DNA of 64,000 bases from Sphingomonadaceae bacterium. Its GTDB lineage: Bacteria > Pseudomonadota > Alphaproteobacteria > Sphingomonadales > Sphingomonadaceae. The position numbers and the translations under genes were made by a program. This document shows, one piece after another, positions 3,160 through 49,036 of this stretch. The notes below the pieces were generated by a model, which was not told where the DNA came from, ran no database searches, and saw nothing but the letters and a program-made list of their open reading frames with translations. The stretch is from contig CANHQT010000008.1 of assembly GCA_947463325.1 (NCBI GenBank), positions 1 through 64,000 of the forward strand, in the 5' to 3' direction. Numbering within the stretch: position 1 is the stretch's first letter; each line of letters begins with the position of its first letter.

Positions 3160-3801
3160 TCAGCCCGCGCGCACGCCCTGAGCGACCGCCTCGGCGGCTT
3201 CACGGCCAACCGCGGTCTTGAATCCCTCGCGCGCTGTCATTGTTTCGAGCCACTCCGTCAGGCGGGGGGTGAGGTGATGCGACAGCCGCGTCATCCGGCT
3301 CAACCACAATGCATAGGCGATGCAGATGTCGGCGACAGTGAACCGCCCGCCACACAGATAGTCGCGACTGGCGAGATGATGGTCGATCTTGGCGAGGCGC
3401 TTGCCGAACCAATCGCCGTAGGCCTCCCCGGCCGCCTCAAGCCCGCGCTCGCGTTCAAACACACTGAAACGCAGCGCGACCGTCTGGGGGAAGGTCAAGG
3501 TGGCATCAGCGTGCGCGATGAAATCGAGGAACATCGGATAATCCGGCTCATCGGGCGTCAGCGCCAGCCCGCCCGGATCGTGCCGCGCCGCCAGCCAATG
3601 CGCGATGGCACAGCTTTCGGTCATCAGCTGCCCGTCGAACTCCAACGCAGGCACTGTGCCTAACGGATTGATGGCCAGATACTCCCGCGCCTTCGCCCGC
3701 GGAGGAAAGGGCAGCATCGTCATCGGCAAAGCAATGCCCAGCTCGGCGGCCGTCCAGCTCACGCGCAAACCCCGAGAACCCTCACATGTGTAAAGCCGCA
3801 T
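3160..3801 (-). CDS. glutathione S-transferase family protein
   Basis: A 213-residue cytosolic GST. The N-terminal thioredoxin-like half begins [16 protein letters not shown], with a Ser/Cys-type active-site region near residues 5-10, and carries the conserved cis-Pro segment [11 protein letters not shown] and the glutathione-binding TES motif. The C-terminal half is all-helical, with the [12 protein letters not shown] signature typical of the GST-C domain. The ATG at 3801 is chosen because GAGG lies at good spacing upstream; a GTG two codons further out is possible. It is divergent from the LOV-HTH regulator, with roughly 70 bases between them, so the two may share a control region. The substrate is not predictable. 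Confidence 0.9.
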
Positions 3802-3818
3802 TGACACCTCAAGTGTAA

Positions 3819-3828
3819 CGAAATTTCG
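3819..3828. promoter_or_regulatory. perfect 10-bp palindrome in the GST / LOV-HTH divergent promoter
   Basis: The palindrome CGAAATTTCG lies in the short divergent intergenic region between the GST and the LOV-HTH gene. A smaller inverted repeat, ACAC-N5-GTGT, sits at 3804-3816. A dimeric regulator such as the neighbouring LuxR-type HTH protein could bind here, but this is inferred from position only. The sequence does not visibly match a site I can name. Confidence 0.3.
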
Positions 3829-3874
3829 CGAACTACTGGCACAATGCCGAACTAGCCTCTATAACGGAAGCGTA

Positions 3875-4504
3875 GTGGGACAAGTTTTCAATCCAGCGCC
3901 CTATGCCGTAGCGTCGCGCGTACTCCGCATGATTGCGGATAGCCCGATTGCGTCCGTGATCAGCAACCCGCGGATCGAGGATAATCCGCTGGTCGCCTGC
4001 AATAAGGCGTTCTGCGACCTGACCGGCTATGGGCCAGATGCCATTATCGGACGCAACTGCCGCTTTCTTGCAGGCCCGGGAACTGAACCTTGGCTAACCG
4101 CCGCCATCAGTGATGGTGTGCGGGAGCATCGCCCGGTGTTGGTCGAAATTCTGAACTACAAGGCGGATGGCACGCCATTCCGCAATGCGGTGCTGGTTGC
4201 GCCCATGTATGATGAAAATGGCGACCTCGAATATTTTCTGGGCTCGCAAGTCGAGCTGATGGACGAAGCACCGGGCCCATCGACAACCCGGCGCATCCGC
4301 GCAGCGGAAATCGTCAAAACCCTGTCCGAGCGGCAGCGGCAAGTGCTTAAGCTGGCCGCTAATGGTCTGATGAATAAGCAGATTGCGGGCGAGCTCGGAC
4401 TCTCCGAAAAAACGGTGAAAATGCACCGTGGCATCCTCATGGAACGGCTGGGTGTGCGCAGCTCCGCAACGATGGTTCGGCTCGCAGTAGAGGCCGGGCT
4501 TTAG
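3875..4504 (+). CDS. LOV-domain blue-light-responsive LuxR-type transcription factor (EL222-like)
   Basis: A 209-residue one-component photoreceptor regulator. The N-terminal PAS/LOV domain (about residues 15-130) contains GRNCRFLAG at 59-67; Cys62 is the residue that forms the flavin adduct in LOV photosensors. Conserved Asn/Gln flavin contacts follow ([29 protein letters not shown]). The C-terminal LuxR/GerE helix-turn-helix (about 149-209) includes [15 protein letters not shown] and [17 protein letters not shown]. This LOV-then-HTH order and length match EL222 of Erythrobacter litoralis, where light releases the HTH so it can dimerise and activate transcription. It starts at GTG 3875 with GGAAG close upstream; no later in-frame ATG would keep the whole LOV fold. 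Targets are unknown. Confidence 0.93.
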
Positions 4505-4788
4505 CGTTACAGCCGAAGGTCCGTATGGGCTCTCATGCCTCTGCCACATAGAACAAAGGGGCATCGTGGCAGGCGGCTTTTGTCCGACGGCTTCGTCAAG
4601 AAGCCACCCCACCGCGCACTTCCCCCCCCACGGGCAGTCCCGCCTGCCGCGATGCGCCCAAGCTCAACCTCTGCAGTCATGCTGGCGCCACACGGCGGCA
4701 GAGCGCCGCCGCACGTCGGCCGAGCCCCGATGGCGCCTGCAAACAGAGTCTGTTGAAAATTTGGCGCCGCGCTGTGCGGCAGCGAAAA

Positions 4789-4864
4789 TGGTGACCCCTA
4801 CGGGACTCGAACCCGTGTTTTCGCCGTGAAAGGGCGACGTCCTAGACCGCTAGACGAAGGGGCC
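4789..4864 (-). tRNA. tRNA-Glu (anticodon TTC)
   Basis: A complete 76-nt cloverleaf on the minus strand with an encoded CCA end. The acceptor stem GGCCCCT pairs with AGGGGTC (one G-T pair), the anticodon loop reads CTTTCAC, and the T-arm contains GGTTCGAGTCC. Anticodon TTC decodes GAA/GAG glutamate codons. It lies just downstream of recJ on the same strand. The 284 bases between it and the LOV-HTH gene hold no gene I can support. Confidence 0.97.
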
Positions 4865-4937
4865 AACCGAAGACCGGCAAGCGCGGCAGGCGCGCCCATT
4901 AGGACGGCCTGACGTGGCGGTCAAGCGGGCTGTGCGG

Positions 4938-43606: not shown

Positions 43607-45817
43607 TCACGGCCGGTAAAACCGCGGCCTCGTCGCAAGAAACGCTTGCCGATCAAACAGTACGGGTTTGAGCCGGTGTTCGACGAACATCTGCGCCTGA
43701 TCGGTGTGGTGGCGCGAGGTGGGGCGGGTGGTGGCGGCGCCGAAGGGCTGGATCGATTCCGAGCGGACATTGCCCGCCCGATCCCAAGCGACGAACATCA
43801 AAAAGCTGTCCCCATGGCGGACGGACAGACGCCCATCATCATCCACATCCCACAGGGTGGAGGCGCGCAGCGTATCATTGCCGCCGTCGAGCGGGAGGTC
43901 GATACGGGTAGCGCCTTCACCCTGCCGCAGGCGCAGCACGGTGCCGAGCGGGGGATCGAGCGTGCCGAAATGGGTTTCGAGATGGTCCGCCGCTTCAGTG
44001 AGGATGGCACGGACATCCGGCCTTTCCCGCGTGCGCAGATAATGGATGCGGTTGGCGGGCCGGAGGATCTTGAGCGCCAGAGCATCCCCCTGCCCCCGGC
44101 CATCGAGCGTCCAGTCCCAGCGGGCGAGCAGCGCCTGTGCCTGCCGTAACCGTTCATCCCCGCGCGGATCGAGCCCGGCGACCTGTGCCATGAATGTGGC
44201 GGCATAGCCGGCCCGTTCATAGCCGGTGTCAAACTTGATCGCTTTCAGCCGCGCTTCATCAATACGGCCTGACGCTTCAAACAAGGTGATGGCGCGCAAG
44301 CTACGGTTGGTTTCATCCAGTTCCACGCCCATGCGCGGATCAAAGGCCGCAGGGTCAAGTTCATCCCCCGGACCGGCGGCGGTGAAGGGCGTGTTGTTGG
44401 CATTCATGAGATAGCCTGAAGCCGGATTGACCAGCGCGGGCAGACGATCAAAGGCCAGCGTGCGTTGCCACAGGGCGCGGCTGTCATCCCCCGGCAGGAT
44501 GCCGCGCCAGTCAAAGCCCGCCGGACGATCGGGGATCATGGCGTTGTAGAAAAGGCCGATATTCCCTTCGCGATCAGCGTAGATGAAATTGGTCGCCGGG
44601 ACGCCCTGTTCCGACATGGCGGCGCGCCATTCGTCAAAATTGCGAGCCTTTTGAATGCGGTAATATTGCGTCACCATATCCAGCCGGTCGATCCCGGCGT
44701 AGCGGATGGCAAAGGCGCCCTCATCATTGATAATCACCGGACCGTGGACCGAGCGGTAGAGGGTGCGCGGCACCGGGATGGTGAACGGGCCCCATTTGAC
44801 GCGCAGCCACACCCGCCGTTTTTCGAGATCACGCCAACCACCATCGAAGCGGTAACGCGTGCCGCCCTCATCCAGGGTGAGGCGATAGACATCAATCAGA
44901 TCGGGCCGGTTGACGGTGTTGGTCCAGCCCAGATTCCGATTGTGGCCGAGGAAGGGATAAGGCGATCCGGGGAAGTTGGCGCCGGCGAAGTCCCAGCCTT
45001 CATCCGAATGGACGACAAGTTCATACCAGGCGACGCCGCCACGCAAGGGCTGATGCGAATTGGAGACGAGCCAGGTGGTGCCATCGCTGCTACGCGAAGG
45101 GGCGACGGCAAAGGCGTTGGAGCCATTCTGCCCTTCGCCATTGCCGAGCAGCGTATTGGCGAAGTAGCGCGAAGGGGATGCAGCGGCGGTGCGCAACGGC
45201 TCTGGCTGTGATGCGGTGCGCAGGTTCGCGGGGATCGGCGGGCCACCTTCTATGCCGAGCGGTTTGCCCTCAATCAGATTCCCGAGCACGCCATCGAGCC
45301 CGAAGAAGAAGGGCGAGCGGACGACGAAGCCAGCCACCACATCCTCCGGCGTGACCGGGAACAGGCCGGTGAGGCGCACTTCCTCCGGATGGCGCTCCGC
45401 ATAGCGGTTCAGCCCCGCCGCATAGGCGGTGAACAGGCGCTTCACATCATCGGGCAGGCCCGCATAATGCCGGTCCACCGTGCCACGACCGTCGATCACA
45501 TGAGCGGCGAAATCGACCCTTGCCCCATCAGCCCCGGTCAACGCACCGAGGCGGCCACGGGTCATCGCCAGCACTTCCTCCAGCGTGGCGAAATCATCCT
45601 CAGCATGGGCGTAACCGACGCCAAAGGCGACATCGGCATCGGTGGCCCCGAAGATGTGGGGAACGCCATAGGCATCGCGGGCGATGCGGACATCGGTGGG
45701 GGTATAGGCCTGTGCCTCCGGCGGGCGCGCGGTGAGCGGATCCCACACAGCAAGGCCCAGCGCGACGGCGAGCAGGAGGGCGACGAGGCCGAGACCGAGA
45801 CGTTTGAACCAGCGCAT
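43607..45817 (-). CDS. penicillin acylase family (Ntn-hydrolase) protein
   Basis: A 736-residue precursor with a signal anchor or signal peptide (about 1-25). Self-cleavage should occur at Gly232-Ser233, in QNGSNAFAVAPSRSS; Ser233 becomes the N-terminal nucleophile. The beta chain then shows SNSHQPLRGGVAWYEL and the GHNRNLGWTNTVNRPD segment. Family members cleave amides such as penicillins, acyl-homoserine lactones and aculeacin; a quorum-quenching role is possible but unproven. The start at 45817 matches the signal sequence. Its start is 14 bases from the end of the upstream cupin gene on the same strand. Confidence 0.92.
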   Translation of the reverse strand: MRWFKRLGLGLVALLLAVALGLAVWDPLTARPPEAQAYTPTDVRIARDAYGVPHIFGATDADVAFGVGYAHAEDDFATLEEVLAMTRGRLGALTGADGARVDFAAHVIDGRGTVDRHYAGLPDDVKRLFTAYAAGLNRYAERHPEEVRLTGLFPVTPEDVVAGFVVRSPFFFGLDGVLGNLIEGKPLGIEGGPPIPANLRTASQPEPLRTAAASPSRYFANTLLGNGEGQNGSNAFAVAPSRSSDGTTWLVSNSHQPLRGGVAWYELVVHSDEGWDFAGANFPGSPYPFLGHNRNLGWTNTVNRPDLIDVYRLTLDEGGTRYRFDGGWRDLEKRRVWLRVKWGPFTIPVPRTLYRSVHGPVIINDEGAFAIRYAGIDRLDMVTQYYRIQKARNFDEWRAAMSEQGVPATNFIYADREGNIGLFYNAMIPDRPAGFDWRGILPGDDSRALWQRTLAFDRLPALVNPASGYLMNANNTPFTAAGPGDELDPAAFDPRMGVELDETNRSLRAITLFEASGRIDEARLKAIKFDTGYERAGYAATFMAQVAGLDPRGDERLRQAQALLARWDWTLDGRGQGDALALKILRPANRIHYLRTRERPDVRAILTEAADHLETHFGTLDPPLGTVLRLRQGEGATRIDLPLDGGNDTLRASTLWDVDDDGRLSVRHGDSFLMFVAWDRAGNVRSESIQPFGAATTRPTSRHHTDQAQMFVEHRLKPVLFDRQAFLATRPRFYRP

Positions 45818-48076: not shown

Positions 48077-49036
48077 CTATGCGACTCTCCGACTACGCGT
48101 CTTGCTCATCGAGTCCATCCGCGCGAACCGACCGCCAAAATGTTTCGAACTACTTGAAATTGAATGAAACAGTCGTGCAATGTCCCACAAGACATGAACA
48201 ATTTTCGAGTTAACGTTCTCAAAAAGCTGTGCCGAATCCAATTCCCTCGAAAGGTCCGTCCGAAATAAAAAATCGGCGTTCGAAATTTCGCGATATAAAC
48301 GAAATCCAACATCTTCCGATTTGCTATATGGAAACCAGACGTTGAACTCGTGTCTATAGTTTATAGAGTTCCGAGTCTTTGCGAGCCAACTCGCTGTGCC
48401 CAGCCCATCTAGGACTATGGCATTAACCAGTCCATCAGCTGAATCAAAAAATTCTCGAGAGTCGGCCTGCCCGGTGCGCAACGCTACCGTCGCCGCTTCC
48501 ATTAACTCAATACAAAAATCCCGCCAAAATCCATCATGTACGCCTAAACCTCGGCTGCTCTTGCGAACGATGAGTTGCAGTACACCATTCTTCTCTAAGG
48601 CACGGAAAGCAATGAAACCTGCGTCCAAGTTGAAGCCGGCAACACCGTACAATTCACACAGCTCGCTTAAACGTTCGATGGGCTTAGGGCTAACTTGGGA
48701 AACACCGCTGCCGAAAGCGCGCATCAAAGCATGACCCGCAAAAAAAGCAGCATAGTAAGACTCGATTAGTCGCCAAGCTGTAAATCTGAGGTTCTTCCCG
48801 TTCTGCCGTGACCGATGGAAACTTTCCATTGCTGACAGCGCAAATCTATCAAAATCTCCGGCCAGATAACTTTGAAACTTATCTACGTCTTGCACAATAA
48901 AAGAGAACGTGTTTGAGTTCAATCCAATCGGAACCAAATTTGCATTCAACAAATATGCGTCAAGACCCCCATAAATTGGGGTCGATCGCGCTATATCGCG
49001 CAATACGACGCCTCGCAGGCCGGCGACGATGCTCAC
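48077..49036 (-). CDS. hypothetical HEPN-like protein paired with the DGQHR protein
   Basis: A 319-residue, mainly helical protein that I do not recognise as a named family. It carries R222-N223-x5-H229 (in TRNSINYRH), which fits the R-x4-6-H motif with a polar residue after Arg, typical of HEPN ribonucleases. A helical segment rich in aromatics (AWRLIESYYAAFFAGH, about 87-102) precedes it. The Ser-rich, basic C-terminus (SKTRSRRVA) could contact nucleic acid. It starts at GTG 49036, four bases after the DGQHR gene stop, so they are one operon. Its base composition is strikingly AT-rich compared with neighbours, a sign of transfer. Function as a toxin nuclease is inference. Confidence 0.7.
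   Translation of the reverse strand: MSIVAGLRGVVLRDIARSTPIYGGLDAYLLNANLVPIGLNSNTFSFIVQDVDKFQSYLAGDFDRFALSAMESFHRSRQNGKNLRFTAWRLIESYYAAFFAGHALMRAFGSGVSQVSPKPIERLSELCELYGVAGFNLDAGFIAFRALEKNGVLQLIVRKSSRGLGVHDGFWRDFCIELMEAATVALRTGQADSREFFDSADGLVNAIVLDGLGTASWLAKTRNSINYRHEFNVWFPYSKSEDVGFRLYREISNADFLFRTDLSRELDSAQLFENVNSKIVHVLWDIARLFHSISSSSKHFGGRFARMDSMSKTRSRRVA

Follow-up and report, generated by a model that had tools for sequence, protein, structure and literature searches.

A candidate light-induced small RNA encoded behind the gene of an EL222-type photoreceptor in a Sphingomonadaceae bacterium

A gene in the analyzed stretch of DNA (64 kb in full length, hereafter the window) encodes a LOV-HTH transcription factor whose main output appears to be a small RNA encoded in cis directly behind its own gene. 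We put at about 0.7 the probability that this protein is a blue-light activator acting here mainly on that RNA, and not on the divergent glutathione S-transferase (GST) gene that an earlier sequence-only reading had proposed as its target. The LOV-HTH gene, an EL222-type operator behind its stop codon and the structured RNA that follows would form one light-response module, the coordinates of which are collected in Table 1.

Table 1. Features of the proposed light-response module and its neighbourhood in the window
Feature	Position	Strand	Remarks
Divergent GST gene, neighbour outside the proposed system	3163..3801	-	Pfam GST_N, GST_C; not conserved beside orthologues
Palindrome CGAAATTTCG, probably chance	3819..3828	.	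Chance frequency, not conserved
LOV-HTH (EL222-type) photoreceptor transcription factor	3875..4504	+	209 aa, GTG start
GRNCRF LOV motif, residues 59-64, predicted photoactive Cys62	4049..4066	+	Aligned with Cys of EL222 GRNCRF
LuxR/GerE helix-turn-helix, residues 149-204	4319..4486	+	Pfam GerE E 5.8e-20
EL222-type operator TACAGCCGAAGGTCCGTA (candidate)	4508..4525	+	3 nt past LOV-HTH stop; 1 mismatch to YAYRGNCYWWRGNCYRTA
Predicted -10 element TAGAAC	4549..4554	+	A at +33.5 from operator centre
Predicted structured small RNA, start predicted at 4561	4561..4655	+	Fold energy, covariance model, single copy
tRNA-Glu(UUC), far-side boundary of RNA region	4789..4864	-	

The LOV-HTH open reading frame is intact over its 209 codons, has no in-frame alternative start upstream, and a Shine-Dalgarno-like GGAAG lies at 3866-3870 before its GTG. 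Pfam assigned PAS_9 to residues 35-124 in addition to the GerE/LuxR HTH, and the top solved relatives were two EL222 entries (8a5r, E 8e-83; 3p7n, E 1.5e-82), with which residues 13-209 align colinearly and free of gaps at 129 of 197 identical residues (~65%). The protein equals EL222 at EL222 positions C75, N107, N117, V41, L52, A79 and V121, the last four of which presumably tune the photocycle; its N94 and N104 correspond to N107 and N117, and its Gln125 aligns with a Gln of EL222, an Asn/Asn/Gln set that we take to be flavin-pocket residues. Domain order and an 11-residue HTH stretch are also shared with EL222 (Erythrobacter litoralis HTCC2594). Across 117 compared proteins the LOV core motif was NCR in 113 and NCK in 4. 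The sequence-only reading had reported GRNCRF with Cys62 in a 209-residue protein and a complete LuxR HTH, both of which were confirmed, Cys62 by its alignment with the EL222 Cys and the HTH by Pfam; its assignment as an EL222-type blue-light transcription factor has good sequence support in the Pfam domains, the EL222 structures, the identity and the tree branch described below. With the GRNCRF Cys, the flavin-pocket residues, the C-terminal HTH, the tree branch and a nearby operator all found, the product is almost certainly a member of the EL222 kind. Its own genome holds one LOV-HTH gene, and another protein there matches by the HTH end alone.

The in vitro binding consensus of EL222 is given as the 12-mer RGNCYWWRGNCY (PMC10521638). 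Exact copies of it were found upstream of rhodopsin genes in 12 of 17 regions (letter-shuffle expectation 0.25), many of them as the extended palindrome ATACGGCCTAAAGGCCGTAT or a near variant, and upstream of an amine-oxidase-like cluster in 8/27 regions against 0.55 expected, a figure that counts little since six of the eight go back to a single site, shared by near relatives and placed 13 nt ahead of the start as called. Upstream of the LOV-HTH cluster there was one in 96 regions (2.0 expected). The 18-mer YAYRGNCYWWRGNCYRTA was composed from these sites, and the window site differs by one mismatch from the 18-mer and by one from the published 12-mer. For the counts, the tree and the protein comparison, L001 (self) as well as L031 and L103 (too distant) were dropped and near-copies were removed by 11-mer overlap, leaving sets of 81, 106 and 111 loci. 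Within 60 nt past the LOV-HTH stop, the 18-mer with at most one mismatch was found in 33 of the 81 non-redundant loci (the window among them), compared to 2 of 526 other called ORF ends in the same loci; at up to two mismatches the figures were 40/81 and 4/526. Since YAYRGNCYWWRGNCYRTA was derived partly from the counted loci, the test lies in this comparison with other ORF ends and not in the raw count. At one mismatch, 48 of the 81 loci had no such operator. The window organism's genome has the 18-mer with no mismatch once (contig 12), with one mismatch twice (contig 25 and the window site) and with up to two at 45 distinct places, fewer than for a reversed control pattern. Given the one mismatch of the window site and such chance low-mismatch sites, position and comparison carry the argument, and on these grounds the site is very probably an operator of the LOV-HTH protein.

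Operators were also seen in other settings. In further loci the operator precedes fasciclin, amine-oxidase-like or DCC1-like genes. Novosphingobium-type loci L090-L093, L095 and L096 have it (1-2 mismatches) just upstream of LOV-HTH, which suggests autoregulation in that lineage, and downstream of LOV-HTH in many genus relatives (L003-L021) an at most half-conserved operator precedes a short-chain dehydrogenase gene, an amine-oxidase-like gene lying divergently on its other side (by eye).

A fixed position downstream of the operator points to a promoter. An A stands at +33.5 from the operator centre in 39 of 40 sites of the first set and, in an enlarged set (loci with <250 nt downstream excluded), in 56 of 58 loci with up to two mismatches (15/15, 30/31 and 11/12); among 3-mismatch sites it was found in 6/14. 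We read this A as position -11, within a -10 element, and place the transcription start near +44.5. Operators of LuxR-type activators overlap the -35 region, and such centring fits. A general promoter and terminator scan of 3700-4900 returned no sigma-70-like promoter and no plus-strand terminator.

From the predicted start onwards, the window can be folded into an RNA with a 16-bp closing stem (GCAUCGUGGCAGGCGG / CCGCCUGCCGCGAUGC), inner helices and an unpaired C-rich tract with CUUCCCCCCCC. The stretch 4558-4658 had a minimum free energy of -55.6 kcal/mol with z = -5.0 (0 of 200 shuffles as low), a z value that is optimistic because the stretch was chosen for its stem; the RNAs of 13 relatives, likewise chosen, gave z from -3.0 to -7.4. 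In an offset test, operators (up to two mismatches) were fixed first, and 12 nt were then scored for complementarity 50-135 nt downstream. A closing-stem score of at least 9 was reached in 16-18 of 58 loci at offsets 43.5-46.5 from the operator centre, in 0-2 at offsets up to 40.5 and again at 52.5-65.5, with a small rise (6) at 66.5. The operators had been fixed independently of the RNA. In these loci the closing stem therefore starts at the predicted transcription start. All 33 RNAs located by eye likewise start 43.5-46.5 from the operator centre (44.5 in 16, 43.5 in 7, 46.5 in 6, 45.5 in 4), where the choice of operator leans towards 44; their distance from the LOV-HTH stop varies from 56 to 97 nt.

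A covariance model built from nine Erythrobacteraceae-type sequences, window left out, had its best match in the 64 kb, a modest one, at exactly 4561-4655 (E 0.0014, ~0.05 genome-wide by scaling), the other strand of the window reaching 20.2 bits too. In a whole-genome search with 150 of 482 candidates scored, the window copy was not among the matches listed. The model was also run on 29 family loci, three of which are copies of training sequences, and matched 6 of the 26 untrained ones (E 3e-5 to 1e-14); on 95 other loci it gave nothing significant. Stem sequences differ between clades. In an alignment of 15 relatives (window excluded), which was fitted to the covariance model and thus leans towards it, 96.3% of cells pair and 13 of 20 pairs changed on both sides, a count that none of 500 shuffles reached; four of five measures were equalled by 0/500 shuffles and the fifth by 5/500, and sliding by 1-3 columns as a control lowered pairing to 29-50%. 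GUUUCCUCCUGUCCCUCCCGAAGCG is an invariant loop in four EL222-clade sequences, with double changes in 3/23 predicted pairs, and AUCCUCCCUCCUCCU is one in six sequences of the L158 group, with 11/33; in both groups the stems partly vary with pairing kept, and some pairs are broken in one or two sequences. The inner part of the window RNA is unlike that of the others, with a poly-C tract where the others have CCUCC.

Rfam 15 gave no match up to E 5 on the RNA strand of 4561-4655 and one of E 5, far under its cut-off, on the opposite strand; in the loci of six relatives there was no match up to E 1. Of the stretch 4505-4720 the genome has a single full copy, with pieces of at most 42 bases elsewhere, so a repeat element was rejected; among small ORFs past 4505, one from 4535 was rejected because its start would precede the predicted transcription start. 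We are fairly confident that the RNA is transcribed, and its induction by light through the operator is probable. Pairing with Shine-Dalgarno regions of mRNAs, which is suggested by the CCUCC and poly-C loops and by analogy with the small RNA GsrN (see below), stands at about even odds. L023, L027 and L028 have an RNA-like hairpin rich in C (GGAUGUCCGGCCGG...CCGGCCGGGCAUCC type) at 70-147 nt past the stop, where no operator was recognisable.

As an alternative, light-response mRNAs might carry the RNA as a structured 5' leader (attenuator- or riboswitch-like), or the window copy might be what is left of such a leader after loss of its downstream gene. In several loci the RNA could be an mRNA leader, since L042, L046 and L049-L052 have a DCC1-like or amine-oxidase-like gene downstream in the same orientation (in L049 behind one called opposite-strand ORF); however, what comes next, a gene or ORF, lies on the opposite strand in L044, L048, L054, the window and the locus of EL222 itself (L181), conservation in the L158 and L181 groups is among the highest in the exposed CCUCC loops, and L181 has a terminator-like hairpin with TTTT soon past the RNA (by eye), so that we regard a leader as unlikely.

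Far less probable is control of the divergent GST, or of the LOV-HTH gene itself, through a palindrome in the region between the two genes. The GST reads divergently from an ATG at 3801, which leaves 73 bp (3802-3874); the roughly 70-base divergent region with a palindrome that the sequence-only reading had described is thus present, CGAAATTTCG being a perfect 10-bp palindrome within this short shared region, but the palindrome does not rise above chance, since a 73-bp stretch is expected to contain ~0.09 palindromes of ten bp, a second copy lies at 48281 of the window, and among 129 loci it was found upstream of the LOV-HTH gene only in the window's own. Between the genes there is no EL222-type site, the best match to the consensus having 3 mismatches in 12, and of 128 other LOV-HTH loci just one has a GST homologue nearby (26% identity; flanks of 1.5 kb in whole-genome loci and up to 5 kb in others). 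In Novosphingobium L090, L091 and L093 the operator upstream of LOV-HTH has at most one mismatch, which makes autoregulation possible there; for the window, a light-responsive GST and autoregulation through the 73-bp region were both rejected, which suggests that the GST is a bystander. The most improbable reading of all takes the operator palindrome not for a DNA-binding site but for a terminator or RNA hairpin belonging to the LOV-HTH mRNA: it would account for a palindrome directly past the stop codon and for TTTT or more after it in L046, L049, L052 and L181, but the site matches the in vitro EL222 motif sequence-specifically, no T-run follows it in the window or at the GTATGG-type sites of rhodopsin loci, the -10 A is fixed at +33.5 in 56/58 loci, and in Novosphingobium this motif also stands upstream of LOV-HTH itself.

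The preferred reading, a light-induced small RNA, can be compared with EL222's own locus. Among 397 family genomes, one (G284, locus L181, ~3.1 Mb) encodes a protein 100% identical to EL222, and we take this genome to be that of E. litoralis HTCC2594 or of another strain sharing the protein. The sole perfect 18-mer of this genome lies 44 nt past the EL222 stop, followed by the -10 A and an RNA (GUGACUGGGUCGGGCC...GGCCCGGUCAC) with UUUCCUCCUGUCCCUCCC in its loop; the ORF taken as the next gene is on the opposite strand. Both loci have an EL222-type operator and a C-rich RNA directly behind the gene, whereas the stem and loop sequences of the two RNAs are unlike each other and the operator has one mismatch to the 18-mer in the window and none in EL222's locus.

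LOV-HTH matches at E <=1e-66 were found in 29 of 80 genus genomes, own included, and at E 1e-40 in 116 of the 397 family genomes; G169, G268 and G445 have two or three matches each. In a tree of 111 proteins, rooted at the midpoint only, the window and EL222 fall into one 56-row branch (support 97/94), which includes 22 of 23 rows scored as RNA-bearing; L073, which carries the RNA label and sits in the rhodopsin branch, is probably a false positive. Another branch includes 14 of 15 rhodopsin-linked rows, mostly Brevundimonas with other Caulobacteraceae, Devosia and some Sphingomonadales. The relatives with the highest identity (73-79%; L032-L037, L154) show neither operator nor such RNA, so that the module seems to have been lost or moved there; the operator is present in L043, the closest to the window by tree path. 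L024, L029 and L031 each have another member of the LOV-HTH sequence cluster near the LOV-HTH gene.

At L056, L059, L061-L068, L071-L073, L075, L076 and L082, LOV-HTH adjoins rhodopsin genes or lies within three genes upstream of them, a Blh-like gene often coming next, and most of these loci have ATACGGCCTAAAGGCCGTAT or a near variant behind LOV-HTH. Pfam on one cluster member each confirmed the rhodopsin and BCD (Blh) families, PF01036 matching the L059 neighbour at E 1.6e-40. The rhodopsin loci of Brevundimonas, Devosia and Sphingomonadales are candidates for a blue-light-controlled operon. Rhodopsin as a target in the window organism was rejected, as PF01036 had no match in the 80 genus genomes, own included, where the control genomes also gave none.

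Contig 12 of the window organism's genome holds two Photo_RC (photosynthetic reaction-centre) genes, and a DUF3623 gene, which we take to be PuhE, beside a hemA-like gene (Pfam: Aminotran_1_2 only), so that aerobic anoxygenic phototrophy is probable for this organism. Its genome (2.29 Mb, 99.99% complete) is small compared to most of the 80 genus genomes, mostly 3-5.7 Mb. Among 22 examined of the 45 low-mismatch places, TA at +32.5/+33.5 in either direction was found only at the window site and on contig 12, where the perfect 18-mer (43974-43991; L149:2975-2992) with the -10 element TATTCG lies upstream of a cytochrome c gene, adjoining the hemA-like and DUF3623 genes near photosynthesis genes. 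The corresponding site (up to two mismatches with the -10 A) occurs in none of 29 cytochrome c orthologue loci (20 genomes with LOV-HTH, 9 without), and chance is estimated to give roughly one perfect match in every two genomes, so cytochrome c is at most a possible second target. The contig 25 site (C25:21659) was rejected as a target because it has no -10 element. LOV proteins reportedly act on photosynthesis genes by a different route.

Two kinds of alphaproteobacterial RNA invite comparison. The CcsR or 'cuckoo' RNAs of Rhodobacter have CU-rich hairpin loops of anti-Shine-Dalgarno type, are linked to photooxidative stress, lie downstream of the ccaF1 gene and are controlled by RpoH; the likeness to the window RNA is in the loops, and their location and RpoH control set them apart, both by description. 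GsrN of Caulobacter is a small RNA whose exposed C-rich loop pairs with G-rich mRNA leaders, is under sigma-EcfG and has homologues typically near the general-stress locus, as described in PMC5869019, which also reports no apparent gsrN-like gene in E. litoralis. The window RNA resembles GsrN in being small with an exposed C-rich loop, through which it may pair with mRNAs as GsrN does, and differs from it in following a LOV-HTH gene and an EL222-type operator at promoter distance.

Excerpts of two EL222 reviews (PMC9614035, PMC4844311) cover DNA binding, mechanism and engineered uses and give no native target or native RNA target, and a diurnal study of Porphyrobacter (PMC10674011) mentions neither LOV nor ncRNA. 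Among the papers listed on these subjects, no title or abstract opening described this RNA or rhodopsin control by LOV-HTH; primary EL222 papers were outside this scope, so the downstream site may have been described earlier.

In the mechanism that we propose by analogy with EL222, blue light would form a flavin adduct at Cys62, freeing the HTH and allowing dimerisation. The dimer would bind the operator and activate the promoter with the predicted -10 element, transcription starting at ~4561. The product would be a structured RNA of ~95 nt or longer with a C-rich single-stranded tract, for which structure and conservation were computed, and it may act in trans, presumably base-pairing with mRNAs at their G-rich Shine-Dalgarno regions, as its loop sequences suggest.

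For the EL222 branch as a whole, we see a roughly even chance that the ancestral native output was a cis-encoded, light-induced anti-Shine-Dalgarno small RNA, belonging to an undescribed RNA family that would include that of EL222 itself, and that in the sister branch the same operator serves rhodopsin and retinal-synthesis genes. EL222 is widely used in optogenetics, and the comparison proposes for it both a native promoter layout and a native product in the form of a structured C-rich RNA, while the same type of regulator is tied to rhodopsin genes in other bacteria. A candidate RNA family would thereby be added and natural light-activated promoters offered for optogenetics, and the native role of EL222-type proteins becomes a directly testable question.
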